Shown here: positions 2,439 through 31,394 of the stretch, in pieces | How positions within the stretch are numbered: position 1 is the first letter of the stretch | Layout of the letters: each line of letters opens with the position of its first letter | Source: Clostridia bacterium | Lineage (GTDB): Bacteria; Bacillota; Peptococcia; DRI-13; SM3-B62 | Length of the DNA stretch: 64,000 nucleotides | Assembly: GCA_018432615.1 (NCBI GenBank) | Contig: JAHDSQ010000017.1 | Location: forward strand, 62,001 to 126,000 | Direction: 5' to 3' | Made by a program: the position numbers and the translations under genes | Notes under the pieces: generated by a model | What the model saw: the letters and a program-made list of their open reading frames with translations, nothing else | Told to the model about the DNA's origin: nothing | Databases searched by the model: none

Positions 2439-2897
2439 ATGAGCGAAGCGGTACAAGTGCAAATATATACCGACGGTGCCTGTAAAGGGAACCCGGGACC
2501 CGGGGGTTGGGGGACAATTCTTTTGTTCAAGGGAAAAGAGAAGGAAATTTCCGGCGGTGAGAAGCTGACCACTAATAATAGGATGGAACTGCAAGCGGCC
2601 ATCGAGGGTTTAAAAGTCCTTAAGTATCCGTGCGGTGTGCAGCTTTTTAGCGATAGTGCTTATTTGGTCAACGCCTTTCAAAAGGGCTGGCTTAAAAAGT
2701 GGCAAATGAACGGTTGGAAAACCTCAAAAAAAGAGCCAGTGGAAAACCAGGATCTTTGGCAGAAACTCCTGGAATTATCGGGTATCCACCGGATTGAATG
2801 GATAAAGGTAAAGGGACATGCTGATAACGAATACAACAATCGTTGTGACAGACTGGCGGTAGAAGCGGCTGAAAAAGCGGCTGTCAGTGAAGAGTAG
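2439..2897 (+). CDS. rnhA: Ribonuclease HI
   Basis: Cleaves the RNA strand of RNA-DNA hybrids using two metal ions. At 152 residues it has the usual length for bacterial RNase HI. The four catalytic acids are visible: D12 in YTDGAC, E50 in NNRMEL, D72 in FSDSAYL and D137 in NNRCDRLA. The basic protrusion that grips hybrids is also present (KGWLKKWQMNGWK). It lies 69 bp after the DUF3048 gene and 32 bp before the next gene, so it probably belongs to the same short transcription unit. Confidence 0.95.
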   Translation: MSEAVQVQIYTDGACKGNPGPGGWGTILLFKGKEKEISGGEKLTTNNRMELQAAIEGLKVLKYPCGVQLFSDSAYLVNAFQKGWLKKWQMNGWKTSKKEPVENQDLWQKLLELSGIHRIEWIKVKGHADNEYNNRCDRLAVEAAEKAAVSEE

Positions 2898-2929
2898 GTC
2901 ATGGAACGAAGGGATGAGGTGGAGATAGA

Positions 2930-3487
2930 ATGCGTTATGTGAAGGGTGTGGCGATGGTTTTAGCCGTAATAGTGATTATTGTATCGTTGTATGGGTGGGC
3001 TGCGTTTTATCTTGATTCCTGGCATGAAGGGATTTCGCTGGATACACAGCATGATGCCGATCACTATGAAGAGATAATGCAAGTGACTGTTGCCGGACTT
3101 GCCGACGGCTCATTAGAGTCCTCTGCCGTAAACTTGTCCGATAAGGAATACGAAGAAATATTGAAGCACCTGGTAAAGAGCAATGCGGATTTTGTTGCTC
3201 TTATCAAGGGGTTAAGCGTTGATAATGAGGGCGACAAGGTAATCTTTAAAGTCAACGTTAGTGTGAAAAGCTGGAAAAAGGCGATATTACTGGGCTTGAA
3301 GCCCCATTATGACGCGACACAAAAAGAACTTCTCTTAGAGGTGGAATCATTTAAACTGGGAAGATTCTCTTTACCGACCTTTCCCGCTCTTTATATGGCG
3401 GAAAAGATTGGTAAGCAGCAGAATCTTTTTGGGGTTGATGAGAATAGGATGGTTTTCAAGCTCGAGGATATACCTGTTGAGTTTTGA
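2930..3487 (+). CDS. Membrane-anchored protein of unknown function
   Basis: A 185-residue protein with one N-terminal hydrophobic segment (about residues 5-27) followed by a soluble, probably extracytoplasmic domain. I do not recognise the family with certainty. The layout (anchor, then a mixed alpha/beta domain ending in a hydrophobic PVEF tail) is reminiscent of YpmS/DUF2140-like proteins, but this is a guess. The start is supported by AGGTGGAG six bases upstream of the ATG. Confidence 0.6.
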   Translation: MRYVKGVAMVLAVIVIIVSLYGWAAFYLDSWHEGISLDTQHDADHYEEIMQVTVAGLADGSLESSAVNLSDKEYEEILKHLVKSNADFVALIKGLSVDNEGDKVIFKVNVSVKSWKKAILLGLKPHYDATQKELLLEVESFKLGRFSLPTFPALYMAEKIGKQQNLFGVDENRMVFKLEDIPVEF

Positions 3488-3537: not shown

Positions 3538-4593
3538 ATGGCATATTTATATTCGGAGATAAAGGTCAAGGATCGGGTGATTAAAAACAGAATAGTTCTA
3601 CCGCCGGTTGTCCGTTTTGGTTGGAGTGACGATAATGGCTTTGTAAGTGCAAGACACATCGAGCATTACGAAAAAATAGCAAAAAGCGGTACAGGGCTCA
3701 TTATTCTCGAGGCAACCGCTATCAGAAAAGAAGGCAGGCTTGCCCTTTCACAACTCGGCATCTGGTCAGATGAACAAATTGAGGGCTTAAGCAAAATTGT
3801 TGCGGCTTGCCGCAAGCATGGGGCAGAGATGCTTATTCAGATTCATGATGCCGGGATGAAGACAGCCCAGGGTGTTACCGAAGATATAGTCGGCCCTTCC
3901 GACACAACTCGGAAGGGAGTAACGGCAAGGGCTTTGACCAAGGAAGAAATATATGAGATTAAGAATCGGTTTGTTGAAGCAGCGAAGAGAGCCGAAAAGG
4001 CCGGATTCGGCGGGATTGAAATACATGGAGCACATAATTACCTGCTTGATCAGTTCATGTCGCCGATTACCAACAAGAGGGAAGATGAATACGGCGGGTC
4101 ATTAGAAAATAGGATGAGATTTGCCCTGGAAGTTATTGAAGGAATTAAAGAAGCAGTCTCGCCGGAATTCATTATCGGCTACCGGTTTGGAGGTAATGCC
4201 CCAACCCTTGGAGAAGGAAGAATAATAGCCAAGGCTTTGGAAAACAAGGGAGTCGACCTTTTGCATGTATCTTGGGGTATCTTCGATGAAATAACAACAG
4301 AAGTTCCCGCAGGATTTCAATATAACTGGATCGTTTATCTCGGAACTGAAATAAAAAAAGAGATCGGGATTCCTGTTATAGTGGTAAACGGGATCAGGAC
4401 ACCAAAAGAGGCGAGTTACCTGATAGAAAACGATCTGGCAGATTTTGTTGCCTTAGCAAGGGCACACTTGGCAGATCCTGAATGGGCCCACAAAGCCCTC
4501 AACGGAGGGGAGATAAAAACCTGTCTTCACTGTCGAAGATGCCAATGGTATGTAGACGGTGATAAATGCCCCAGAAATATAAACGGCGGGTAG
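3538..4593 (+). CDS. NADH:flavin oxidoreductase, old yellow enzyme family
   Basis: A 351-residue TIM-barrel flavoprotein predicted to bind FMN and reduce activated double bonds or related substrates with NAD(P)H. Family signatures are IHDAG near residue 100, the GFGGIEIHGAHNYLLDQFMSP loop that carries the active-site residues, NKREDEYGGSLENR, and the late FMN-phosphate region around VVNGIRTP and ADFVALARAHLADPEW. The tail has four cysteines (C-x2-C-x2-C-x8-C), recalling the FeS site of 2,4-dienoyl-CoA reductase relatives, although the long second domain of those enzymes is absent. The start at 3538 is preferred over the ATG at 3517 because AAGGGAGGG lies 8 nt before it. Confidence 0.88.
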   Translation: MAYLYSEIKVKDRVIKNRIVLPPVVRFGWSDDNGFVSARHIEHYEKIAKSGTGLIILEATAIRKEGRLALSQLGIWSDEQIEGLSKIVAACRKHGAEMLIQIHDAGMKTAQGVTEDIVGPSDTTRKGVTARALTKEEIYEIKNRFVEAAKRAEKAGFGGIEIHGAHNYLLDQFMSPITNKREDEYGGSLENRMRFALEVIEGIKEAVSPEFIIGYRFGGNAPTLGEGRIIAKALENKGVDLLHVSWGIFDEITTEVPAGFQYNWIVYLGTEIKKEIGIPVIVVNGIRTPKEASYLIENDLADFVALARAHLADPEWAHKALNGGEIKTCLHCRRCQWYVDGDKCPRNINGG

Positions 4594-4625
4594 CTAGCGA
4601 ATTAATTGTTGAGAAATTGATTTTA

Positions 4626-4656
4626 GGAGACCTTAAAGGTCTTCTTTTTTTTTTGT
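4626..4656 (+). terminator. Rho-independent terminator
   Basis: Stem AGACCT (4628-4633) pairs with AGGTCT (4637-4642) around a TAA loop and is followed by a run of Ts broken by one C. It lies 35 bp after the flavoprotein stop and insulates the cotJ operon downstream. Confidence 0.8.
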
Positions 4657-4731
4657 GTTTTTTAAGAATTGTGACGGCATGTCTGTTGGCTGCATATATT
4701 AGAGTGAACCTTGTTTTTAGGAGGAAAGCCA

Positions 4732-5154
4732 ATGCGAAATTATACGTTTAAGGTAAGACCCAGGCCTGAAAAACCGGAGAATAAAGAAGTAAAAGAAGAA
4801 GCCGGACCGCAGGGGCCAATGCAATTTCCTTTTGGTGGGCCTTGCCCGCCAAAGCCCGTCATGCCGAAACCGGAACCTCCGCAGATTCCGTGCCCAGAAC
4901 CCCCACAGATTCCGTGCCCGGAAATGCCGTATTATCAGCCGAGCCCTATGCCCTACCAACCATACATGGAATATCCGTATATGCCGGAATACCAGATGTG
5001 TCCGGAGAGACTGGCACATGCTTATGTACCCTGGCAATACTACAACGTAATTTATTCTCCAGGCGAGGGCTTGGAAAAAGGAACAATATTCCCTGAACTA
5101 TTTATGCCCAAAGGAGTTTACGGATACGGAGGTGCCCCCTATGCATACAGATAG
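4732..5154 (+). CDS. cotJA: Spore coat-associated protein CotJA with extended proline-rich N-terminus
   Basis: The C-terminal 50 residues (PERLAHAYVPWQ, YSPGEGLEKGTIFPEL, PKGVYG) match the CotJA core, a small protein needed to assemble CotJC into the inner spore coat in Bacillus. The N-terminal 80 residues are an extension rich in Pro, Glu and Cys, with a tandem PPQIPCPE unit that is also visible as a DNA repeat near 4873-4925. B. subtilis CotJA is only about 80 residues long, so this 140-residue form is expanded. The start is fixed by AGGAGG at 4719-4724. The gene overlaps cotJB by 14 bp. Confidence 0.88.
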   Translation: MRNYTFKVRPRPEKPENKEVKEEAGPQGPMQFPFGGPCPPKPVMPKPEPPQIPCPEPPQIPCPEMPYYQPSPMPYQPYMEYPYMPEYQMCPERLAHAYVPWQYYNVIYSPGEGLEKGTIFPELFMPKGVYGYGGAPYAYR

Positions 5155-5401
5155 AAGACGGATGGAGATGTTAAAGGAAATACAAGAATATGCGTTTACC
5201 GCTTTGGAGTTAAATCTCTACCTCGACACCCATCCGGGAGACAACAGGGCATTGGAGCAATTCAACCAAGTGAGTGGTGAACTCACAAGGAAAGTAGAAA
5301 AATATGAAGAATGTTACGGGCCGCTACTGAATTATGGTTATTCAGGCGGTTCAGGCTCTCACTGGCGTTGGGTCGAAGAACCCTGGCCCTGGGAAATGTA
5401 G
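5141..5401 (+). CDS. cotJB: Spore coat protein CotJB
   Basis: An 86-residue protein with the CotJB pattern: a helical first half (EIQEYAFTALELNLYLDTHPGD) ending in FNQVSGELTRKVEKYEECYGPLL, then a Trp-rich tail with WRWVEEPWPWE. It is a member of the inner coat set encoded by cotJABC, which in Bacillus is transcribed in the mother cell. The ATG at 5141 has GGAGG 8 nt upstream and lies inside the end of cotJA, so the two are translationally coupled. An in-frame GTG at 5132 overlaps that ribosome site and is less likely. Confidence 0.9.
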   Translation: MHTDRRRMEMLKEIQEYAFTALELNLYLDTHPGDNRALEQFNQVSGELTRKVEKYEECYGPLLNYGYSGGSGSHWRWVEEPWPWEM

Positions 5402-5416
5402 GAAGGGGGAAAAACG

Positions 5417-5662
5417 ATGTGGATTTATGAGAAAAGGCTCCAGTATCCTGTACGAGTGGACGGCTGCAATGTTAAGTTAGCAAAATACCTAATCACCCAG
5501 TATGGAGGGCCGGATGGGGAACTTGCTGCGGCACTGCGTTATCTTAACCAGCGTTATACCATGCCAACGGGTAAAACAAAGGCCTTGCTGACAGATATCG
5601 GCACCGAGGAACAAGTACCACGATGTTATCAATCATCAATATGCTTAGGAAGTTTGGGGTAA
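5417..5662 (+). CDS. cotJC: CotJC manganese-catalase-like coat protein, 5' fragment split by prophage
   Basis: Codons 1-64 and the GAA of codon 65 (5417-5611) are genuine cotJC, up to the motif DIGTEE. The frame then runs into the prophage and adds 16 foreign residues before a stop at 5662. The fragment keeps only ligand E35 (in GPDGELAAALRY) and, through the shared GAA, E65 of the dinuclear manganese site. The rest of the ferritin-like bundle is encoded 38 kb away at 43690-44070. As it stands this piece cannot form a catalase-like protein; joining the two fragments at GAAC gives an in-frame 190-residue CotJC, the normal family length. The ribosome site is GGAAGGGGG upstream of the ATG. Confidence 0.93.
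   Translation: MWIYEKRLQYPVRVDGCNVKLAKYLITQYGGPDGELAAALRYLNQRYTMPTGKTKALLTDIGTEEQVPRCYQSSICLGSLG
5596..5635. other. attL, left prophage attachment site
   Basis: Host arm: ATCGGCACCGAG from cotJC. Shared core: GAAC at 5609-5612, repeated at 43690-43693. Phage arm: an 18-bp sequence at 5618-5635 that is the exact inverted copy of 43665-43682. The very short core with arms of dyad symmetry is what serine integrases leave, unlike the longer identical cores of tyrosine integrases. The integrase stop codon (5629-5631) lies inside the phage arm. Confidence 0.88.
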
Positions 5663-7176
5663 AGCTTGAGCTCGAAATCGTCCATGGAATTCTTGTTATA
5701 TCTTCCATCAACAGTTTTCATATAAACAACTTTATCTAATACTTCTTTTAACATCTTATTTTTACTCTCTGGTGTTTTTAAATCCCAATACGATCGAACA
5801 ATCTTCTTCATGGCCGGCACGATTTTTTTCTTCTGTGCTTCTGTTGTCGCTATATTTTCAATTCTTTTTTCTACCGCAGCCTTATCGAGATTTGCTTGAT
5901 TAAGTTTATCCTTCAAAAGTGTAGATCGCTCCAGGAATATATCAACGGAATAAATACCCTGTTCCAATAGATCATGGAGGTTATTCATCTGTTCGGTTAA
6001 AATGTTAATTTCCTTAATAAGTCTTTTCTGAGATTTCTCTAACAGTTCTTTGTCACTAGTTTTTTCTTCTGGTGTTACATCAACAATATATTCATCCAAC
6101 CACATTGACAAGGCTTGCAACAGTTTATCTTCCACGATATGCAAATGAGAACTTACATTAGTACAAGACGTAAGAGGACACATTAAAGTATCAGGGTACT
6201 TACCGCCGTATGGCCGTCTAACCATTTTCCGGCCGCAACAACCACAGATAATCAATCCAGAAAGCGGGTTTTTGACACCCAACTTTTTAGGGGCAGGAAC
6301 GGACGGATTTTCGGCCATGATTGTTTGAGCAATGCTAAAAACTTCTTCACTAACTAATGGTTTGTGCAGCCCTTTAACTAGTGTGTACTCTTCCGCTCTT
6401 GGGCGTTCCTTTACTACTTCACCATCTATCATTTTTTTTATGGCCGCCCGATAACCCCGCCTGATCATGCCTATATAAACAGGGTTAGTTAAAATCCCCC
6501 GGATTGTTGCCGGTACCCAAACTCCACCTTTTGCGGTTGGAACTTTCATGTCATTTAGTCGTCTGCAAATTATAGATACTCCGCTGCCGTTTATGTAAAG
6601 ATCAAATATCATTACTACTACGGGAGACTGCTCCGGATGTGGATCCAAGGTATAACCTTTATCTCCAACAATCTTGATCCTGTTGTAGCCATAAGGTGGT
6701 ATATTCCCAACATACTTGCCTTGTTTTACAGAGGACATTATACCCTGCTGCAGTCTGCGGTTAATAGTTTTGTATTCTCGGCGGCTCATAAAAAGGCCAA
6801 ATTCGAAATACTCCTCATCAAATTCATTCAATGGATCATATGTTTTTACAGGAGTAATAATCTTGGTCCCGGAATATTTGAATGTCTGAGCAACCAATCC
6901 CTGATCCATTGTATCACCGCGGGCTAATCTTTCAACTTCTACCACAAATATACCCTGCCAAAGACCCTGCTCGACCTCAGATAAGATTTGTTGCATGACA
7001 GGACGAGAAGCAATTGTCTCTCCGGACACAACCTCCCGATAAATGGTTTTAATTGAGATGCTTAGCCGCTTAGCTGTATCCCACAATATCTTTTCATGCC
7101 GGGCAAGGGTTTCACCTTCGCCTCTGGCTTCAGCTTCAACATCTGCTCTGGACTTTCTGAGATACATGCAGTACAT
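5629..7176 (-). CDS. int: Large serine recombinase (phage integrase)
   Basis: Catalyses site-specific integration, and excision when a directionality factor is present. The N-terminal resolvase domain (about 1-150) has the nucleophile S9 in YLRKSR and the helix motif VVEVERLARGD. The recombinase domain (about 165-280) includes NIPPYGY and ILTNPVYIG. A zinc ribbon follows (CGCCGRKM, then CPLTSC), then a coiled-coil segment (about 380-450). Its length of 515 residues is normal. The start lies one base after the repressor stop, with GGGTGAT as ribosome site, so it is co-expressed with the repressor. The 3' end runs into attL. No tyrosine integrase was found. Confidence 0.95.
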   Translation of the reverse strand: MYCMYLRKSRADVEAEARGEGETLARHEKILWDTAKRLSISIKTIYREVVSGETIASRPVMQQILSEVEQGLWQGIFVVEVERLARGDTMDQGLVAQTFKYSGTKIITPVKTYDPLNEFDEEYFEFGLFMSRREYKTINRRLQQGIMSSVKQGKYVGNIPPYGYNRIKIVGDKGYTLDPHPEQSPVVVMIFDLYINGSGVSIICRRLNDMKVPTAKGGVWVPATIRGILTNPVYIGMIRRGYRAAIKKMIDGEVVKERPRAEEYTLVKGLHKPLVSEEVFSIAQTIMAENPSVPAPKKLGVKNPLSGLIICGCCGRKMVRRPYGGKYPDTLMCPLTSCTNVSSHLHIVEDKLLQALSMWLDEYIVDVTPEEKTSDKELLEKSQKRLIKEINILTEQMNNLHDLLEQGIYSVDIFLERSTLLKDKLNQANLDKAAVEKRIENIATTEAQKKKIVPAMKKIVRSYWDLKTPESKNKMLKEVLDKVVYMKTVDGRYNKNSMDDFELKLYPKLPKHIDD

Positions 7177-11105: not shown

Positions 11106-12533
11106 TTGAACTACATTGAATCGTTAACCCTAGAAAACTTCCAGTCTCATAAAAAAACAACCATTATACCGGCCCCTTCCGGACAACTTACTGTTATTGT
11201 GGGCCCATCTGACTCAGGCAAAACGGCCATTATCCGCGGTTTAAAGCTCTTAGCGTATAACTCGCCTTCCGGAATTGACTATATCCAAGTGGGATCTCAG
11301 TCGGCAGCCGTATCTGCCATTATGGAGGACGGCACGAAGGTGTCTCGAGAACGTTCCCGGGGCGGGGTGAATCGGTACTTGCTGGGCAAACAGAAATATG
11401 AAGGTTTTGGCGTTGGGAATCCACCGTTAGAAATCCGGCAAGCTTTGGGAATCTCCCCTATTGATATCGGCGACCAAAGCTTCAACTTAAACCTTTCGGA
11501 ACAACTTGATGGCCCCTTCCTTGGCAATTCCGTGCCGGTCACAGCCAAAGCAAAGGTACTGGGCAAACTCTCCGGAGTGGAAGAGATTGATTACGCTGGA
11601 AAAACCCTAGGCACAGACATATACCGCAAGAAGCGCGACAAGGAAGGGTATGAGAACCAAGTTAGGCACCTTACAGAAGAGATAGAAGGTTATACCTACT
11701 TGGATGAGCTGGAGCCATTAATAGATCTAATTGAAAAACAGGTTGTCCGGCTAAAAGAGAAGCAGTCAAAAAAGGAAAAGCTATCTGAATTGAAATTATG
11801 CTTGGTCAGCACCCGGGCCGCTATTACCCAAGAAGAACAAAAAATAGCCAGCCTCTGCAACATCAATGACGCTTATACCACTCTCAATGGCACTGAGAGC
11901 AAGCAACAAAGATTACAGAGACTGACACGTTCAAGAAATGAACTCAACTCTATTATACCTCAAATCAGGAACTCTGAGGATATAGTAGAGGCAACAAAAG
12001 ATATTGATAGTATTGCTTTGGTTGTTTCCGCTGCTTCAGAAAAGTATAACAAGTTGACCTCGCTCAGAGCGTTGCTCGGCAATAGAAACACTTACAAGGC
12101 AGAGTTGAGCTCAATACAGGTAGTTTTGGAAGCTACTCAAGGCATATCTGAAACATTAGAAACCGTTGAAAAGCTTTACGACAAATCCGAGAAATTATAC
12201 GCACTGAAGTTAAAAAAGAAGTCGCTAGAATGGATACAGAAAGACATGTTGTACAATAACAAAGTCTTAGAGAACACACAAAACATTGATGACTTGCTTG
12301 CAAAAACAGAAGAATTAACTGCCAAAGTGTACAGAACTAGCGGATTAAAAGTCAGAAGAGATCTGTGCAAGCAAAAGAAAGACGAAATAGAGGAAGCAAC
12401 ACGTCAAATCGGTACTTTTGAAAAAACTGTCGAGAGCTTAACCAAAGACTTGACGGATCTCTTTATGGAGGCCGGGACCTGCCCGATGTGCGGTAGTGAA
12501 ATGAACCTTGAAAAATTGAAGGAGGTAATTTGA
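11106..12533 (+). CDS. Rad50/SbcC-like ATPase, N-terminal half with zinc hook
   Basis: Residues 1-160 form an SMC/Rad50 N-lobe: it starts LTLENFQSHKKTTI, carries Walker A GPSDSGKT, and has a Q-loop-type region with NLSEQLDGPFL. About 300 residues of coiled coil follow, ending in CPMCGSEM, a zinc-hook half-site. The protein stops there, and the returning coil and the second ATPase lobe are encoded by the next two genes. It is therefore a split version of T4 gp46/SbcC, working in recombination or end processing with the nuclease at 13422. The start is a TTG behind GGAGG. Confidence 0.85.
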   Translation: MNYIESLTLENFQSHKKTTIIPAPSGQLTVIVGPSDSGKTAIIRGLKLLAYNSPSGIDYIQVGSQSAAVSAIMEDGTKVSRERSRGGVNRYLLGKQKYEGFGVGNPPLEIRQALGISPIDIGDQSFNLNLSEQLDGPFLGNSVPVTAKAKVLGKLSGVEEIDYAGKTLGTDIYRKKRDKEGYENQVRHLTEEIEGYTYLDELEPLIDLIEKQVVRLKEKQSKKEKLSELKLCLVSTRAAITQEEQKIASLCNINDAYTTLNGTESKQQRLQRLTRSRNELNSIIPQIRNSEDIVEATKDIDSIALVVSAASEKYNKLTSLRALLGNRNTYKAELSSIQVVLEATQGISETLETVEKLYDKSEKLYALKLKKKSLEWIQKDMLYNNKVLENTQNIDDLLAKTEELTAKVYRTSGLKVRRDLCKQKKDEIEEATRQIGTFEKTVESLTKDLTDLFMEAGTCPMCGSEMNLEKLKEVI

Positions 12534-12785
12534 GTGAGCGAATATGCTGGTAAAATAAATAGCTTAAAAGCAGCCTTGGAAAAGGCGAAAATGGATAAAG
12601 TCAAGGCAGAGCAAAACAAGGAAAACTTGGATAAACGACTCGAGGAAATCGAGACTGAAATTAAAGCCTTGGGCGTGGATCCGGCACAGTTGGAAGAAAC
12701 GATTACCAATCTGGATACGGAGATACAGGCTGATTTATTAAGCGTTGAGCAGCTTATCCCGGCTCAATACAAGCAGGTGATATGA
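12534..12785 (+). CDS. Small coiled-coil protein of the split Rad50 operon
   Basis: An 83-residue, almost wholly helical protein (KAALEKAKMDKVKAEQNKEN, LDKRLEEIETEIKALG). GTG start directly after the previous TGA, ribosome site GAAGGAGG. By position it corresponds to part of the returning coiled coil of a normal Rad50/SbcC chain, now a separate polypeptide. Its end overlaps the start of the next gene. Confidence 0.7.
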   Translation: MSEYAGKINSLKAALEKAKMDKVKAEQNKENLDKRLEEIETEIKALGVDPAQLEETITNLDTEIQADLLSVEQLIPAQYKQVI

Positions 12786-13429
12786 TGCTGCACAACATCG
12801 AAGCGTCCCTTTCAAGGATGCAAGAAACTTATTCAGAAGGTGTCGGGGCTCGTAATAGAGCCCTGACACAAAAAGCTGAGAATGAAAGATTGTTGTCCGA
12901 AGCAATCAATCTTATCTCCACTTGGGAGCAAGTACAACTACTCCTGACCAAGACAAGCGAGTATGCCCGGCAGCAGCTCAAAGCCCGAATCGAAGAGACA
13001 GTCACAGCAGCCCTACAAGCAGTGTTTGGGGAAGAACTGCAGTTCAGAATCATCATAAAAGAGTTCCGTGATCAATCTGCGGCCGAGTGGAAGGTGGTCT
13101 CTAAATATGGAGATATGGAGATTGAAGCAGACCCTCAGGATGCCAGAGGCGGAGGGATAGTTGATATTGTATCTTTGGCACTCCGACTTGCAATGATGGA
13201 GCTGGCCCGGCCAAAGGTGACGGGCCCTGTGGTACTGGATGAACCCGGGAAAATGGTTAGCAAGGAGTATTCAGCTAACATGGGATATTTCCTCAAGCAG
13301 TATGCAGAGAAAACAGGTCGTCAAGTAATCCTGGTCAGTCACAACGAGGACCTTATAGCGGCTGCCGATGTGGTATATCGGGTAAGTAAGAATAGTTTGG
13401 GTGAAAGTGTGGTGGTATTGGATGGCTAG
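12782..13429 (+). CDS. Rad50/SbcC-like ATPase, C-terminal half
   Basis: 215 residues. A coiled-coil start is followed by the ABC-type C-lobe: signature-like DARGGGIVDIVSLALRLAMM, Walker B PVVLDEPGKMVS with the catalytic E, and the H-loop ILVSHNEDL. It has no Walker A, which is supplied by the protein at 11106. Both halves together rebuild one ATP site per dimer. It overlaps the Mre11-like gene by 8 bp. Confidence 0.85.
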   Translation: MMLHNIEASLSRMQETYSEGVGARNRALTQKAENERLLSEAINLISTWEQVQLLLTKTSEYARQQLKARIEETVTAALQAVFGEELQFRIIIKEFRDQSAAEWKVVSKYGDMEIEADPQDARGGGIVDIVSLALRLAMMELARPKVTGPVVLDEPGKMVSKEYSANMGYFLKQYAEKTGRQVILVSHNEDLIAAADVVYRVSKNSLGESVVVLDG

Positions 13430-17194: not shown

Positions 17195-20086
17195 TTGAAT
17201 ACTCAAGACTTAGAACAAATCCTATCTCAGCTTGATAATATAAAATTCTTTGAGGCTAATGGTTTACGGCCCAAAAAGAAAACCGGCAAATCATGGCCAT
17301 GCGAATGCCCTTTTTGCGGTGACAAGAAACACTTGAATTTTGACCCTAAAACAGGGCTTTGGCAGTGTTTTAAATGCAATGAATCAGGGAATGCCGTAAG
17401 TTTCTACGCGAAAAGGCACAACTGTACTAATGGAGATGCTGTCAAGGCCATAAAAGAGTTTATGGGCATTGTGGATGAGCCGCAGCCGTCAAGAAAAAAT
17501 AACAAAGCTAAAAGCAAGACTAACTCCAAACAAAAAAAAGAGGATCCAAAGAACGTTGGTCCAGCCAAGCCTCAAATATATGACAGGCTCATCCAGCTAG
17601 CCCAGTTAACACCGGAGCACCGCGAAGAGTTGCAGAAGAAACGCGGATTCAATGACAAGATCATTGACAGCCTCCGGTTCCGCTCCGGCGGAGACTACAT
17701 GATCGGCGTTGTGCAGCAGATACAAGATGAATATGAGGAATCTGATTTAGTTTCAGCGGGGATCCTGGTGGACGTGAATGGTTCTACTATTATTAACGAT
17801 CAACTGAAAGATGGACGGATCCTTATCCCTTATCTTGACGCTGCCGGAAATTGTTATCACTTACGGCCGCACAAATTAGGCTTCAAGGATATTCCTCCGG
17901 AAGCATATTGCCGCTTGTTGCTGCGTAATAAACCTGAGCATGTTGTTATTACAGAGGGTGAGTTTAAAGCGGCCGCACTTTTGCAATGGGGCATCCCTGC
18001 TTTGGCTATTCCGGGTGTTTCCACTTTTGGCAAGCTCTATTTCGAGCGGTTTTTGCAATTCCTCAAGGAACATAACATCAAAAAAACGACGATCATTTTT
18101 GATTCCGAAGAGAAGGGCAATCCCGAATACCCTAACTATAAAGAAAAGGCCGAAGATCGTTACGATACGGAATATTGGTCGTATTTTATGGGATATCAAC
18201 TCAGCAGACATGGAGTAAGCACAAAGATCGGATGGCTGCCGGCCGAATGGCGCGAAAACGGGAAGATTGATTTTGACGGTGCTCTGGCTCAAGGCCGAAG
18301 CAAAGAGGATATTATCCAGGTGATCAGCAAGGCCAAAACACCTAAAGAGTACAAAAACTCGCTGGATGAGGAAGCTCATAAAATAGTTGAACGCAAGCTG
18401 GCCCGCTATTTTGCCAAGGAGAAGATCAAGCGTGATTTTAACAGATATATTGCCCTCCGGTTCACGAAGGACAAGTCTTGGGAGGAAACGATTAGTAATT
18501 TTGTTATAAATATCAAGTCAAGTTTCTACACACCCTCCGGCGTGGTCAGGAACGTGGAACTTGTCAATCAGTACGGTGAAGCTTCAGAGACTTTTGTTTT
18601 GGAACCAGGATCCATGGCCGGCGTGAATGAGTTTAAAAAATTTTTACTCTCTAAAGGCAATTATCTCTTTTACGGCAAGGGCGATGATCTGACTAACATT
18701 TGGGAGTATGAGTTTCTGCGCGACACCGGAGAGCTGATCTGGATGCCGGAAAAAATCGGGAAGATCTCCGGAGATATATGGTTGTTTGGAAATATGGGGA
18801 TCAAGGACGGTAAGTGTTACCCGCCGGATAATGACGGAATAATTTGGATTGACAAACGCGGGTACAAGCCTCAGTCGCTGCGTGTTGGGCCCGGAGGTGA
18901 GCCGTTAGAGGATTCAATCCCGGCCCTGAGTATCCGGCATATAGACATCAAGGAAATTGCCTATAAGCTGAAACAAAGCATTGGCGGTTATGAGGCATAT
19001 ATGGGCATTGGTTGGGTTGTGGCTGCGATTTTTGCCGATGAGATTTTCCGGGTTTATAAATGTTCGCCTATCCTTTTCCCACATGGCAAACGGGAAAGCG
19101 GCAAATCAACCTTTATGCGTTGGTTGATGAATTTCTTCGGGATTGAAACGGAGGGAATCTCGGTCGGCCGGACAACAACACAAAACTTTGTGGCCCGGAT
19201 CCTTTCCTATCGATCATGTATCGGGGTTTGGTTTGATGAATACCGAAACGAACTCGGTGTCGTGGAAAAAGACGGGTTATTCCGCAGTGCATACAATCGG
19301 CAGGTATCAGGGAAAGGAACAGCTACGGCGTTTCAGGCAAAAGGATTTAGCGTCAACGCAGTGATGGCTATTAGTGGGGAAGAGCTGCCTAAGGATAACG
19401 GTCTATTTACACGCTGTATCCCGTTGCAGATATCTTCCTACAAGAGAGACCGTACTTGGTACGACTGGTTGAACAAAAACTCAGTGCAGTTCTCGTCCTT
19501 TGCATATCATTTGTTGCTACATTATGAGGAATACAAAAAGAAGGTCCTGCAAAGTATTGCTGAGCTGAAACGTGCACTGATTAAGCTAGACGTTACTGAT
19601 CGTACTGCTGAGAACTGGGCTATTTGTGCGGCTGCCTTTGAAGCTACGGTTATGGAAGACGATGGATTTATCCGATGGGTTGAAAAGAGCTGCCAGGAAA
19701 TCAAACGCACCGGCGAAGAGGAACATATGCTTAACCAATTCTGGGAAGATGTAAACTATTTGGTGAGTAACAATGATGTCGGTTTTAAGCATATCAGGGT
19801 AAGTGGGGACAAGCTGTATGTTTGGTTAGCGGGGTTATATGAAACATGGGCCTTGCACTATAAGAAAAAAACAGGTAGAGAACCATTTGATAGACAGTCA
19901 ATCATTAAATACTTACAAGACGAGCCTTACTATATTACAGCAGAACCACGAAAAATGGGATCTGTTTCAAGAAAAGTCCATATTCTCGGTATTGAATCTG
20001 CCACGGATATTATCAAGGAAATTTCTTGTGCACTGGATATCCAAACAGAAATTACCGAAAACTCATCAAAACTACCTGGCTATTAA
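17195..20086 (+). CDS. Primase-helicase replication protein
   Basis: 963 residues. The N-terminal zinc finger (CECPFCGDKK, then WQCFKCNESGN, about residues 35-66) is CHC2-like as in DnaG. A Toprim-like region follows (VVITEGEFKAAALLQWG, then TTIIFDSEE, about 245-310). The C-terminal half is an AAA motor with Walker A GKRESGKST near residue 630 and Walker B-like IGVWFDEYRNE. It probably primes and unwinds at the phage origin; the iteron region directly downstream supports this. TTG start behind AAAGGTGG. Confidence 0.87.
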   Translation: MNTQDLEQILSQLDNIKFFEANGLRPKKKTGKSWPCECPFCGDKKHLNFDPKTGLWQCFKCNESGNAVSFYAKRHNCTNGDAVKAIKEFMGIVDEPQPSRKNNKAKSKTNSKQKKEDPKNVGPAKPQIYDRLIQLAQLTPEHREELQKKRGFNDKIIDSLRFRSGGDYMIGVVQQIQDEYEESDLVSAGILVDVNGSTIINDQLKDGRILIPYLDAAGNCYHLRPHKLGFKDIPPEAYCRLLLRNKPEHVVITEGEFKAAALLQWGIPALAIPGVSTFGKLYFERFLQFLKEHNIKKTTIIFDSEEKGNPEYPNYKEKAEDRYDTEYWSYFMGYQLSRHGVSTKIGWLPAEWRENGKIDFDGALAQGRSKEDIIQVISKAKTPKEYKNSLDEEAHKIVERKLARYFAKEKIKRDFNRYIALRFTKDKSWEETISNFVINIKSSFYTPSGVVRNVELVNQYGEASETFVLEPGSMAGVNEFKKFLLSKGNYLFYGKGDDLTNIWEYEFLRDTGELIWMPEKIGKISGDIWLFGNMGIKDGKCYPPDNDGIIWIDKRGYKPQSLRVGPGGEPLEDSIPALSIRHIDIKEIAYKLKQSIGGYEAYMGIGWVVAAIFADEIFRVYKCSPILFPHGKRESGKSTFMRWLMNFFGIETEGISVGRTTTQNFVARILSYRSCIGVWFDEYRNELGVVEKDGLFRSAYNRQVSGKGTATAFQAKGFSVNAVMAISGEELPKDNGLFTRCIPLQISSYKRDRTWYDWLNKNSVQFSSFAYHLLLHYEEYKKKVLQSIAELKRALIKLDVTDRTAENWAICAAAFEATVMEDDGFIRWVEKSCQEIKRTGEEEHMLNQFWEDVNYLVSNNDVGFKHIRVSGDKLYVWLAGLYETWALHYKKKTGREPFDRQSIIKYLQDEPYYITAEPRKMGSVSRKVHILGIESATDIIKEISCALDIQTEITENSSKLPGY

Positions 20087-20390
20087 CCAAAAGTAGTCGG
20101 AAAGTAGTTGCCCAGGTAGTCGGTTTAAAACATTAAGCGACAAGGGATTTGAAGGTTGCGACTACCTGACTACCTCACTTTCCCGGAAAAAATATTTTTC
20201 AAAAATACTTTTCATTATTTCAATAAGTTTTTCTTTATCTTTTAGCAGTCAACTAAAAAAATATATGCGTTTTCTAAAAACCCAGGTAGTCGAGGTAGTC
20301 GGATTCTCGTAAGCCTTGCAATAAAAGAATTATAGCGACTACCTGAGGAACTACCTAGCGACTACCTCAAAAGTAGTTCAGGTAGTCGCC
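20070..20390. repeat. Iteron cluster around an AT-rich core (candidate phage origin)
   Basis: The 325-bp gap between the primase-helicase and the next gene holds no ORF but about a dozen copies of the 9-mer AGGTAGTCG or its complement CGACTACCT. Full or near-full copies start at 20092, 20114, 20159, 20168, 20284, 20293, 20336, 20359 and 20380; weaker ones at 20071, 20103, 20349 and 20372. They form two clusters either side of a very A+T-rich stretch (20187-20280). Repeats in both orientations beside an unwinding-prone core after the replication gene are the layout of an iteron origin. Confidence 0.65.
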
Positions 20391-20411
20391 AATAAAAAAG
20401 GGATGGTGAAA

Positions 20412-20846
20412 ATGGGAAGATACGATCAGCTATTAAGCAATAACACTCAGAAGGATCCCTTGCCAAAAAACAATACAGACCCTCGTCCCGATATAGTCCA
20501 AGATCATCGTTTATGGCTCAAAATACTGGTTAACGCAAAAGAGTTGTTCAATGAATCCAACCTTTTTGAAGTTTTACACGGGATTCGCTGCGGCGGTGGA
20601 ATGCTGGAAGAAACGAAAAGAGCATTCAAACTGCATCCAGGAAATGAAGAGTGGGCGGATCCGCATGAGTGGACCAGGGTGAAACAAAAATGGCTCGACC
20701 CTGTGAAGGATGATTTATTAAATCTTTTCCGATTATCGAAAATTGGACAAGTAACGGATCAGGAATTACCACCGGGTGTTTTCGAAGAAGAAGCCATAGA
20801 AACAAAAGAACGTAAGCAAGAGTGCTTATTTAAGGGAGGAGCTTAG
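20412..20846 (+). CDS. Phage protein of unknown function
   Basis: A 144-residue protein. A polar, Asn/Pro-rich start (TQKDPLPKNNTDPRPD) leads into a helical, Trp-containing domain (HRLWLKILVNAKELF, GIRCGGGMLEETKRAFKL, WTRVKQKWLDPVKDDLLNLF). It is not a family I can name. The ATG at 20412 is preferred over 20403 because the purine-rich AAGGGATGG is better spaced. It is the first gene after the iterons. Confidence 0.6.
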   Translation: MGRYDQLLSNNTQKDPLPKNNTDPRPDIVQDHRLWLKILVNAKELFNESNLFEVLHGIRCGGGMLEETKRAFKLHPGNEEWADPHEWTRVKQKWLDPVKDDLLNLFRLSKIGQVTDQELPPGVFEEEAIETKERKQECLFKGGA

Positions 20847-20847
20847 G

Positions 20848-21222
20848 ATGAGTATAAACAGTAGAGATAAGGGTGCCCGGGGAGAACGTGAATTTGCTGC
20901 ACTATGCCGGGCAGAAGGGTATGACGGCTGCCGGAGAGGTCAGCAGTATAACGGTATTGAAGGCGAAGATGTGGTTGGGTTGCCATACATGCATGTTGAA
21001 GTAAAAAGGGTTGAGAAACTCAATATTGATAAAGCTATGGCCCAATCTATGCAGGATTGTAGCGGGAAAATCCCGATTGTGGCACACCGAAAAGATAGGT
21101 GTTCTTGGCTCATTACGATGAAGGCTGAAGATTGGTTTATGTTGTTCCGTGAATTTTGCTCAGGCGAAGTGTTGAAGGAGGTTGCCGCCAATGAAAAAAC
21201 AAATAATCATCCCCAAGGGTAG
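20848..21222 (+). CDS. PD-(D/E)XK nuclease, Holliday junction resolvase-like
   Basis: A 124-residue protein with the archaeal-type resolvase layout: start RDKGARGEREFAALCR, then D in GEDVVGLP and ExK in HVEVKR, which form the metal site. Phage enzymes of this kind cut branched DNA before packaging. AAGGGAGGA precedes the ATG, which lies 1 bp after the previous stop. Confidence 0.78.
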   Translation: MSINSRDKGARGEREFAALCRAEGYDGCRRGQQYNGIEGEDVVGLPYMHVEVKRVEKLNIDKAMAQSMQDCSGKIPIVAHRKDRCSWLITMKAEDWFMLFREFCSGEVLKEVAANEKTNNHPQG

Positions 21223-21406: not shown

Positions 21407-22120
21407 TTGAAACCCATTTATGAGCCGAAAGGCAGGGCGAAAGAGTACGGCGATTATGCGCTGAACATATACACTGGATGCCCGCACCGTTGTTATTACT
21501 GCTTTGCGCCGAGCGTCTTGCATAAAGACCGCGAAGCCTTCCATAGCAACGTGGAGCCAAGAAAAGGCATAGTAGAGGCAGTTAAACGGCAGTTGATATC
21601 TGAGAACATCAAAGAAAAATTGATTCATCTGTGCTTTACTTGCGACCCGTATCCAATAGGACACGACAGCGGTGTGACAAGGGAGATTATCAAGCTGATT
21701 AAAAACAGCGGGAACCACGTGCAAATACTTACCAAAAACGGCATAGGAGCACAAAGAGATTTTGATTTGCTGGATAACAAGGATTGGTTCGGCGTTACTT
21801 ATGCGGGCTATAAAACAACCCCTGTCGTACCGCCTGAAGAAGAACAGAACGCAGGATGGCCAATTGATCGATTCCGGGCACTGGTGTTGGCAAAAAACAA
21901 GGGCGTAAACACATGGGTATCTTGCGAACCCGTCTTTGACGCAGAGGCCATTTATCGTCTGATTGAAAATGGCGCATATATTGACCTGTTTAAAATAGGG
22001 AAACTGAATTACCATCCATCGGTGATAAACTGGGGTGCGTTCGGGCGGGAGTGTGAAAGACTGTGTAAAAAACATAACCGCCAGTATTACATCAAAGAGG
22101 ATTTAAGGGCGATGATATGA
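21407..22120 (+). CDS. Radical SAM protein, spore photoproduct lyase-related
   Basis: A 237-residue protein with the radical SAM cluster motif C-x3-C-x2-C in YTGCPHRCYYCFAP. The start PIYEPKGRAKEYGDYALNIYTGC and later FTCDPYP, QILTKNG and WVSCEPVF are the pattern of the SplB-related subgroup often carried by phages. It probably does radical chemistry on DNA or a cofactor, but the substrate is unknown. It is shorter than true spore photoproduct lyase (about 340 residues). TTG start with AGGAGG upstream. Confidence 0.8.
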   Translation: MKPIYEPKGRAKEYGDYALNIYTGCPHRCYYCFAPSVLHKDREAFHSNVEPRKGIVEAVKRQLISENIKEKLIHLCFTCDPYPIGHDSGVTREIIKLIKNSGNHVQILTKNGIGAQRDFDLLDNKDWFGVTYAGYKTTPVVPPEEEQNAGWPIDRFRALVLAKNKGVNTWVSCEPVFDAEAIYRLIENGAYIDLFKIGKLNYHPSVINWGAFGRECERLCKKHNRQYYIKEDLRAMI

Positions 22121-25810: not shown

Positions 25811-26128
25811 GTGGCAAGGAAGAACGAAATAAAAAAAGACCTACTCGATCAGCTCGACAGAAATGGGGTGTACGGTAAGCATTACCGAGACCTCATCAAT
25901 GACTATATGTCTCTTTGGGATATAAAAAACAAGCTCATCAAGGATATCAAGACCCGGGGAGTCTCTGTTCACTGGTGTAACGGAGGCGGCCAAGAGGGGT
26001 ACAAGAAAAACGACTCCATCGCCGAGCTGAACAAGACCAATGCTCAGATGCTCAAGATACTCAATGAACTTGGGCTAAAGGCTAAGAGTGAGGAACATGG
26101 CGGTGAAGGGGATGACGAAGAAATGTAA
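25811..26128 (+). CDS. terS: Terminase small subunit, P27 family
   Basis: A 105-residue protein matching P27-like small terminases: start ARKNEIKKDLLDQLDRNGVYGKHY, central DYMSLWDIKNKLIKDI, then LNKTNAQMLKILNELGL. It recognises phage DNA and regulates the large subunit. The GTG at 25811 follows GGGGGTGG; an upstream GTG at 25793 is possible. Overlaps the large subunit gene. Confidence 0.85.
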   Translation: MARKNEIKKDLLDQLDRNGVYGKHYRDLINDYMSLWDIKNKLIKDIKTRGVSVHWCNGGGQEGYKKNDSIAELNKTNAQMLKILNELGLKAKSEEHGGEGDDEEM

Positions 26129-29837: not shown

Positions 29838-31394
29838 TTGAAAAAGAATGAGTTTAAAATGGATCTTCAACTTTTTGCCATGAAAAATCTTGACACGATT
29901 CAACAGCAAAAAGCTGAAATTATCCAGCGTATCAACCAGGCCGTAAAGGACGGCAACGAGGAAGCCTTCGCAACGGCTTTTACTGAGTTCACTGACATGT
30001 TGCAAGAGGCAGTTTTAGCCGAAGCAAAGGGCCTTGTGCAAGCTGCGGATAATACCGTGTTGGCAGGCCGTGGTGTACGTGCCTTGACTTCTCAGGAAAC
30101 GAAATACTATGAATCGGTCATTGAGGCTATGAGGTCAAAGAATCCTCAACAAGCACTGACAATGATTGACGAGGCACTACCAACCACCGTTATAGATGCC
30201 GTGCTTGAGGATATCACCGAGGCGCATCCGCTTTTATCGGAGATAAACTTCCAGAACACCGGCATCCTGACAGAGATAATTGTTTCTAGTCTCGATGGCA
30301 GATTCACAGCTGTATGGGGCAAGCTCTGTGATGAGATAGTAACCGAACTGACATCCGGGCTACAGGTCATCGACCTTGAGCAGAACAAGCTGTCTGCGTT
30401 CATCCCAGTCTGTAAGGCTATGCTGGAAATCGGTCCTGCTTGGATAGACCGTTATGTCCGCGGCATACTCGTGGAAGCTATCGCCAACGGCTTAGAAGCG
30501 GCTGTCATTGATGGTACCGGCGTTGATGAGCCTGTCGGCATGACTAAAGACCCGAATGGAATGTTTGACCCTGTGAATGGGTTCGCCGACCTCGTGCCTG
30601 TCGCTCTGGACGCAATTACCCCGGAAACTTATGGAGCGTTAATCGCAGACTTGGCAGTTGGTCCTAACCTCCTGTATCGTAACGTCACCGAAGTGCTGTT
30701 CATCTGCAATCCTGTTGACTACTACACCAAAGTAATGCCTGCTGTGATGTATCAAAACGCTGAGAAGGTGTGGGTAAGCAGATTTCCGTTCCCAACAAAA
30801 GTTATCCAGTCTGTTCATGTATCGCAGAACGAGGCTATTCTTGGCATAGGGAAGCGTTACTTCTTCGGGCTTGGCACCGGCAAGGGTGGCAAAATCGAAT
30901 ACTCTGATCACTACCATTTCCTCGAGGACGAAAGAGTCTATCTAACTAAACTCTATGGCGATGGCAAACCGCTTGACAGCACATCGTTTAAGGTGCTGGA
31001 TATCACTAACCTCGTTCCCGTTGTGCCTGATGTCAACGTAATCAACAATCCGCTGAATGTTGATGGCACGGTTGAAGTGACCAACGACCCGTTGAATGTA
31101 TGGGGTATTGCAGACGCTAGGCTTGCAAGCCTGACAATCGGCAGTTTGACCCTATCTCCTGCATTTAATAAGTCGGTGTTCGTCTACGAAGCGGCTACCA
31201 CTGACGCAACAAACAAAATCACAGCAGTTGCCATGAATGGCGAAGCTGAAATTGATATTGACCTGAACGATGGTACTGCTGTTGCCAATGGTGCTTCGGC
31301 AACATGGGGCGAAGGTGAAAACACAGTTGAAATCACCGTAACAATCGGAGAAGCAACTGAGACTTACACAGTTATCGTGACTAAGTCTACTTAG
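29838..31394 (+). CDS. Major capsid protein (HK97 fold) with C-terminal cadherin-like domain
   Basis: 518 residues. The first 100 are a helical delta-like region (IQQQKAEIIQRINQAVKDG), followed by the HK97 core (EALPTTVIDAVLEDITEAHPL, PAWIDRYVRGILVEAIANGLE, DGTGVDEPVGM). Residues about 425-518 form an extra beta-sandwich (LASLTIGSLTLSPAFNKSVF, WGEGENTVEITVTIGEATET) of the cadherin-like type, probably displayed outside the capsid. TTG start after AAGGAGTG. Confidence 0.9.
   Translation: MKKNEFKMDLQLFAMKNLDTIQQQKAEIIQRINQAVKDGNEEAFATAFTEFTDMLQEAVLAEAKGLVQAADNTVLAGRGVRALTSQETKYYESVIEAMRSKNPQQALTMIDEALPTTVIDAVLEDITEAHPLLSEINFQNTGILTEIIVSSLDGRFTAVWGKLCDEIVTELTSGLQVIDLEQNKLSAFIPVCKAMLEIGPAWIDRYVRGILVEAIANGLEAAVIDGTGVDEPVGMTKDPNGMFDPVNGFADLVPVALDAITPETYGALIADLAVGPNLLYRNVTEVLFICNPVDYYTKVMPAVMYQNAEKVWVSRFPFPTKVIQSVHVSQNEAILGIGKRYFFGLGTGKGGKIEYSDHYHFLEDERVYLTKLYGDGKPLDSTSFKVLDITNLVPVVPDVNVINNPLNVDGTVEVTNDPLNVWGIADARLASLTIGSLTLSPAFNKSVFVYEAATTDATNKITAVAMNGEAEIDIDLNDGTAVANGASATWGEGENTVEITVTIGEATETYTVIVTKST

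Follow-up and report, generated by a model that had tools for sequence, protein, structure and literature searches.

The prophage carried in the 64,000-nucleotide stretch analysed here (the window) raises the question of where its replication begins and which protein recognises the starting site. The element is a siphovirus, with genes for a serine recombinase, a CI-like repressor, SbcCD-like and RecD2-like proteins, a primase-helicase and a RusA/PDDEXK-type nuclease, as well as terminase, portal, capsid and tail genes. A gap without plausible genes (20087-20411), already singled out as gene-free by a sequence-only reading of this DNA, separates the primase-helicase from a small downstream protein, whose start is suggested by homologues to be the ATG at 20412. 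Our analysis indicates that this temperate siphovirus very probably starts its vegetative replication at positions 20069-20388, an origin of the SaPI/PICI-like type whose iterons would be recognised by the winged helix at the C-terminus of the primase-helicase.

A two-arm repeat cluster around an AT-rich core

A repeat search of the window found 13 copies of AGGTAGTCG or close variants between 20069 and 20388, arranged in two arms (Table 1). Seven copies are exact, two carry one mismatch and four are weaker. The iteron-like cluster described by the sequence-only reading is real, with 13 copies rather than the estimated 12 or so, and its direct and inverted copies, including the close inverted pairs 20159/20114 and 20359/20380, are present as described. 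The repeats had been placed right after the primase-helicase gene; the cluster does lie 3' of the gene, but its first copy sits within the last primase codons. The AT-rich core between the two clusters was also confirmed, although it measures 108 bp rather than about 95 bp, and the lowest-GC 100 bp of the whole window (20181-20280) fall inside it.

Table 1. Positions in the window of the proposed origin, its repeats and the neighbouring genes
Feature	Position	Strand	Basis
Primase-helicase, proposed initiator, 963 aa	17195..20086	+	Pfam, PHROGs DNA primase, AlphaFold, Foldseek
Coding part for C-terminal winged helix, residues 864-963, proposed iteron reader	19784..20083	+	Separate model, weak wHTH matches
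Degenerate iteron AGGTAGTTT in primase stop-proximal codons (weaker copy)	20069..20077	-	
Left-arm outer iteron AAGTAGTCG (one mismatch)	20091..20099	+	
Left-arm outer iteron AAGTAGTTG (weaker copy)	20102..20110	+	
Left-arm outer iteron AGGTAGTCG, exact	20114..20122	+	
Left-arm spacer, 36 bp, between facing iterons; weakly conserved ACAAGGGATTT	20123..20158	.	Spacer comparison
Left-arm inner doublet iteron AGGTAGTCG, exact	20159..20167	-	
Left-arm inner doublet iteron AGGTAGTCA (one mismatch)	20167..20175	-	
AT-rich core, 108 bp, GC 0.241; proposed melting region	20176..20283	.	GC scan
Right-arm inner doublet iteron, exact	20284..20292	+	
Right-arm inner doublet iteron, exact	20293..20301	+	
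Right-arm spacer, 34 bp; GCAAGG on - strand	20302..20335	.	Spacer comparison
Right-arm outer iteron, exact	20336..20344	-	
Right-arm outer iteron AGGTAGTTC (weaker copy)	20348..20356	-	
Right-arm outer iteron, exact	20359..20367	-	
Right-arm outermost degenerate iteron AAGTAGTTC (weaker copy)	20371..20379	+	
Right-arm outermost iteron, exact	20380..20388	+	
Small downstream protein, no necessary partner of repeats	20412..20846	+	No Pfam/PHROG match; missing from several repeat-bearing loci

The probability that the cluster is a chance or low-complexity artefact is practically nil, as this explanation is contradicted by shuffles, by genome counts and by the conservation of the cluster in every homologue. 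When the 321-bp stretch was dinucleotide-shuffled 1000 times, seven copies of a 9-mer were never reached, and the best 10-mer count was at most three, compared to five observed. Exact AGGTAGTCG occurs 18 times in the whole 3.16-Mb genome; seven of these occurrences lie within 275 bp here, the remaining 11 are scattered singly, and a genome-wide scan found the paired pattern at the window cluster only.

The position of the cluster between two genes of the same orientation, and its multiple inverted copies that could be operators, would also suit a region that controls transcription of the downstream operon, as an operator array or attenuator, with no role in initiation, yet neither a sigma-70-like promoter on the + strand nor a terminator was found in 19600-21000, and no Rfam family was found at the repeat stretch. 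Against an origin here, GC skew showed no switch at the repeat site, although this is a prophage in which nearly all genes point one way.

The primase-helicase and its predicted C-terminal winged helix

The gene immediately upstream of the repeats encodes a fusion of a DnaG-type primase with a helicase. Pfam identified a CHC2 zinc ribbon (residues 27-92) and a Toprim-like/DUF3854 region (residues 249-279), which are joined by a SaPI Rep/Cch-like helicase core and then by a predicted C-terminal winged helix (about residues 867-958). An AlphaFold model built from 27 sequences (mean pLDDT 85) had as its top Foldseek matches SCCmec Cch (5dgk, E 1e-13) and SaPIBov1 Rep (8tch, E 3.5e-13), followed by DnaG primases and then by poxvirus E5/D5 and PriRep1. 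SaPI Rep was not found among PDB sequences by the A1 profile, and the likeness is one of fold and layout, not sequence. Among GenBank phages and plasmids no homologue exceeded about 30% identity, and the sample examined from the host's genus and order held no relatives.

Modelled alone, residues 864-963 (mean pLDDT 87.5) showed strands and helices in the order E-E-H-H-E-E-H. The PDB matches of this model were weak (E 0.28 or worse) but were winged-helix DNA binders such as RFX, the replication terminator protein RTP and TcpK, and the best viral matches included a Toprim protein of Flavobacterium phage 23T, matched at its C-terminus. A search of Pfam and PDB sequences with the C-terminal domain alone returned no credible family. 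Matches of the domain to alphaRep and Krueppel proteins were short and were judged to be due to chance.

Conservation of the repeat layout in homologous prophages

Homologues at 47-62% identity were fetched from viral contigs and genomes for comparison. In each of the 24 non-redundant homologous prophages, among them the window and the displaced case L063, the primase-helicase gene is closely followed on its 3' side by the densest 7-mer cluster of the fetched locus. This cluster contained 5-14 copies, compared to 3-5 elsewhere in the locus, and exceeded background by just 1-2 copies in L026, L028 and L011 on the 7-mer measure. The motif itself varies by phage, with AGGTAGTCG in the window, AGGTTACGC in L003, GGTGGCTCAC in L004, CTGTCCCAT in L005, CATCTAACC in L009, AGGTAACGC in L010, AGGTTGCAA in both L012 and L018, and others elsewhere.

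While the sequence diverges, the layout is kept: inner doublets with copies 8-9 bp apart flank the AT-rich core on both sides, and outer copies face them. Same-strand pairs 7-9 bp apart occurred in 15 of 15 loci (mean under random placement 8.9), pairs 11-12 bp apart, formed by the outer copies, in 13 of 15 (mean 5.8), and facing pairs 45-47 bp apart in 12 of 15 (mean 4.1), the last count leaning somewhat towards the pattern because strand labels at several loci were set by geometry. These counts were not once equalled in 2000 random trials; the site finder threshold was permissive, such that individual weak sites are uncertain.

The spacers between facing iterons measured 34-39 bp in most arms compared across loci. 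They share a weak CAAGG.TTT element, also present in the two window spacers, which forms a perfect 14-bp hairpin in the left arm of L009 and in that locus only. CAAGG was found in 12 of 39 spacers, against a shuffled maximum of 9. A conserved element between the facing iterons was suggestive, but we dropped it because the spacers are related by descent.

Two loci have lost the simple adjacency of gene and repeats. In L011 a reverse-strand gene lies between the primase-helicase gene and the repeats, and in L063 (reverse complement) a methyltransferase-like gene (2734-3411) is inserted before the cluster; in both cases the repeats are intact. With the cluster surviving these upstream insertions and its two-arm geometry around an AT core kept across phages, a role confined to transcription control of the downstream operon is very unlikely indeed. 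As a separate observation, primase and helicase are separate ORFs in one branch (L011 3965-7120, L012 3938-7000 and L018 3815-7064), and there the repeats still follow the helicase half.

In most loci the repeats are followed by a gene for a homologue of the 20412 protein, which would fit a model in which a phage protein other than the primase-helicase, for instance this one, binds the repeats as a separate initiator or regulator and the primase-helicase is recruited later. We consider this very unlikely. The 20412 protein has no recognisable domain in Pfam or PHROGs, and its homologue is absent from L016, L020/L023, L028 and the PrimPol loci described below, all of which have repeats, whereas no repeat-bearing case lacks the C-terminal winged helix. 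Because of these missing homologues, the 20412 protein, which had been put forward earlier as a candidate binder, loses ground to the primase-helicase, which is itself the likely iteron binder on the sequence and model evidence. The INDEPENDENCE from transcript and neighbour, that is, the gene insertions in L011 and L063 together with the missing 20412 homologue, argues that the repeats form a site in the DNA that belongs with the primase-helicase, and not with the transcript end or the next gene.

Repeat clusters also serve as parS, pac and inc sites. That this cluster serves partition, packaging or incompatibility as a cis site with iteron-like repeats is scarcely credible, since the gene to which the repeats are linked encodes a replication helicase with primase in every case, never ParA/ParB or terminase, and the terminase gene, at 26088, is about 6 kb off.

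Distant helicase relatives at 22-32% identity (L029-L031, L033 and L034) had no such cluster downstream, including L033, which has a similar C-terminus. This limits the rule to the present family and to proteins with this C-terminal domain, rather than extending it to all phage primase-helicases. The 40% identical L032 was considered as an exception, with a coding repeat at +1743 as its top cluster, but was rejected as such because GTAAC/GTTAC shows a tenfold enrichment past its stop codon (9 versus 0.9 per 450 bp). The coding repeat in L032 (8251-8430, an AATAGCA cluster) is Cys-rich, lies about 1.7 kb past the primase-helicase gene and is unrelated to the iterons.

The C-terminal domain in unrelated PrimPol-helicases

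A profile of the C-terminal domain found otherwise unrelated PrimPol-type primase-helicases with an NrS-1-type HBD. PrimPol-helicases that share only this domain also have repeats directly 3' of their gene, with the motif AGGTAAC in G119, G229 and G086, and AAGTTAC in G160 and in an element on contig C64 of the window's own genome. Thus, the coupling of gene to repeats appears, from sequence comparison, to be carried by the C-terminal domain.

The C64 element (L079; G000:C64:58000-70000, reverse complement) is a second prophage-like element, with a PrimPol-helicase ORF at 3657-6239. Its own A[AG]GTTAC repeats surround an AT-rich core in the 270 bp after this ORF; their number is low (5 exact copies), and the case rests on pattern as well as number. 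This element contains no AGGTAGTC copy, and the window origin contains no AAGTTAC or AGGTTAC copy.

The correlation between motif and C-terminal residues was weak (r about 0.24) and best at residues 901-950 or 911-950, with a partial permutation p of 0.006-0.011 that is uncorrected for about 84 overlapping windows and depends on a register set by hand. With confidence a little short of even, we suggest that the C-terminal winged helix could be a mobile origin-reading module, missing from Pfam and joined to unrelated primase-helicases, whose target repeat changes fast between close relatives. Phages of the same host, including the two elements described here, would then carry orthogonal origins like incompatibility groups, and a few wing and helix residues would set specificity. 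The differences in repeat specificity may have been diversified by selection or may simply be drifting.

Comparison with known replication modules

In PICIs, the origin always contains an AT-rich region between two sets of iterons, and the rep-ori drives plasmid replication (PMC6092414). The window element resembles SaPIBov1 Rep and the SaPI/PICI rep-ori in having an initiator helicase with a C-terminal DNA-binding domain (here predicted), an origin with iterons immediately 3' of the helicase gene, two iteron sets around the AT-rich region (PMC6092414, PMC7581432), and a Rep/Cch fold, with 5dgk and 8tch as the top matches. This likeness is one of layout and fold. Unlike SaPIs and PICIs, the host element is a complete temperate phage rather than a satellite, and the window element is therefore not a PICI. 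The primase also differs from that of SaPIs, being of the DnaG/Toprim type and fused, and the protein has no detectable sequence similarity to Rep. On fold and layout, the window element is nonetheless predicted to belong with the SaPI/PICI rep-ori modules.

Similarities to other systems are more partial. In SCCmec Cch2/CCPol-MP, the helicase Cch2 uses its C-terminal domain to bind short direct repeats that lie downstream of the operon (PMC7581432), as is predicted here; that system has only three 5-nt iterons and a separate polymerase-type primase, whereas the window has 13 nine-bp iterons in two arms. The NrS-1-type PrimPol-helicases of Bacillota elements (L067 and L079) share the homologous C-terminal winged helix and have their own downstream iterons, but differ in their unrelated AEP-type primase, their other helicase core and their motifs, AGGTAAC or A[AG]GTTAC. 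No dedicated initiator without helicase activity, as in iteron plasmids or of the lambda-O type, was recognised among the ORFs scanned, which were a part of all ORFs.

The origin of phage P4 requires two separate iteron sites, ori and crr. An origin of the P4 alpha type was rejected because only one cluster is present in the 64-kb window and in the genome, with no second, crr-like cluster. The window element resembles the P4 alpha system in combining primase and helicase in a single protein with a cognate ori (PMC6092414, PMC7145576).

A proposed mechanism of initiation

We propose that the AGGTAGTCG iterons are bound by the winged helix of the neighbouring primase-helicase. With six or seven copies in each arm, one helicase oligomer would sit on either side of the core, and this number could fit one hexamer per arm. 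The two assemblies, facing the AT-rich core, would melt the core DNA and load as self-loading helicases, and the fused DnaG-type primase would prime both strands to give a bidirectional start, as in SaPI/PICI rep-ori modules.

The observations that bear on this proposal are the repeat cluster, its two-arm geometry, the AT core, the coupling to the gene and the C-terminal domain across phages, and the similarity to the Rep/Cch fold. The origin layout with initiator sites recognised by the sequence-only reading was supported in every in-silico test made, namely the 24 of 24 loci, the geometry, the insertions, the PrimPol-helicases and the fold, and the comparison strongly supports its interpretation as an origin.

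This is a known kind of origin, and the family of differing origin specificities is its added interest. The results offer a simple rule by which sequence alone may reveal the replication origin in a group of Bacillota prophages to which the phage collection searched contained no close relatives. They also provide a natural set of initiator-origin pairs with the same layout and different repeat sequences, with which one could directly test how the DNA specificity of a winged-helix initiator changes, and whether prophages residing in one host diversify their origins so as not to interfere with one another.

Other features of the prophage

Three further features of the window were noted. An SbcC-like protein (11106-13429), adjoining an SbcD-like gene, is apparently split over three ORFs (11106-12533, 12534-12785 and 12782-13429). 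Within the replication block, 21407-22120 encodes a radical-SAM-like protein (borderline Pfam score, phrog_13321). Lastly, the major capsid protein (29838-31394) has a C-terminal match to a cadherin-like beta-sandwich (PF12733, below the curated cut-off), which is possibly a surface decoration domain.
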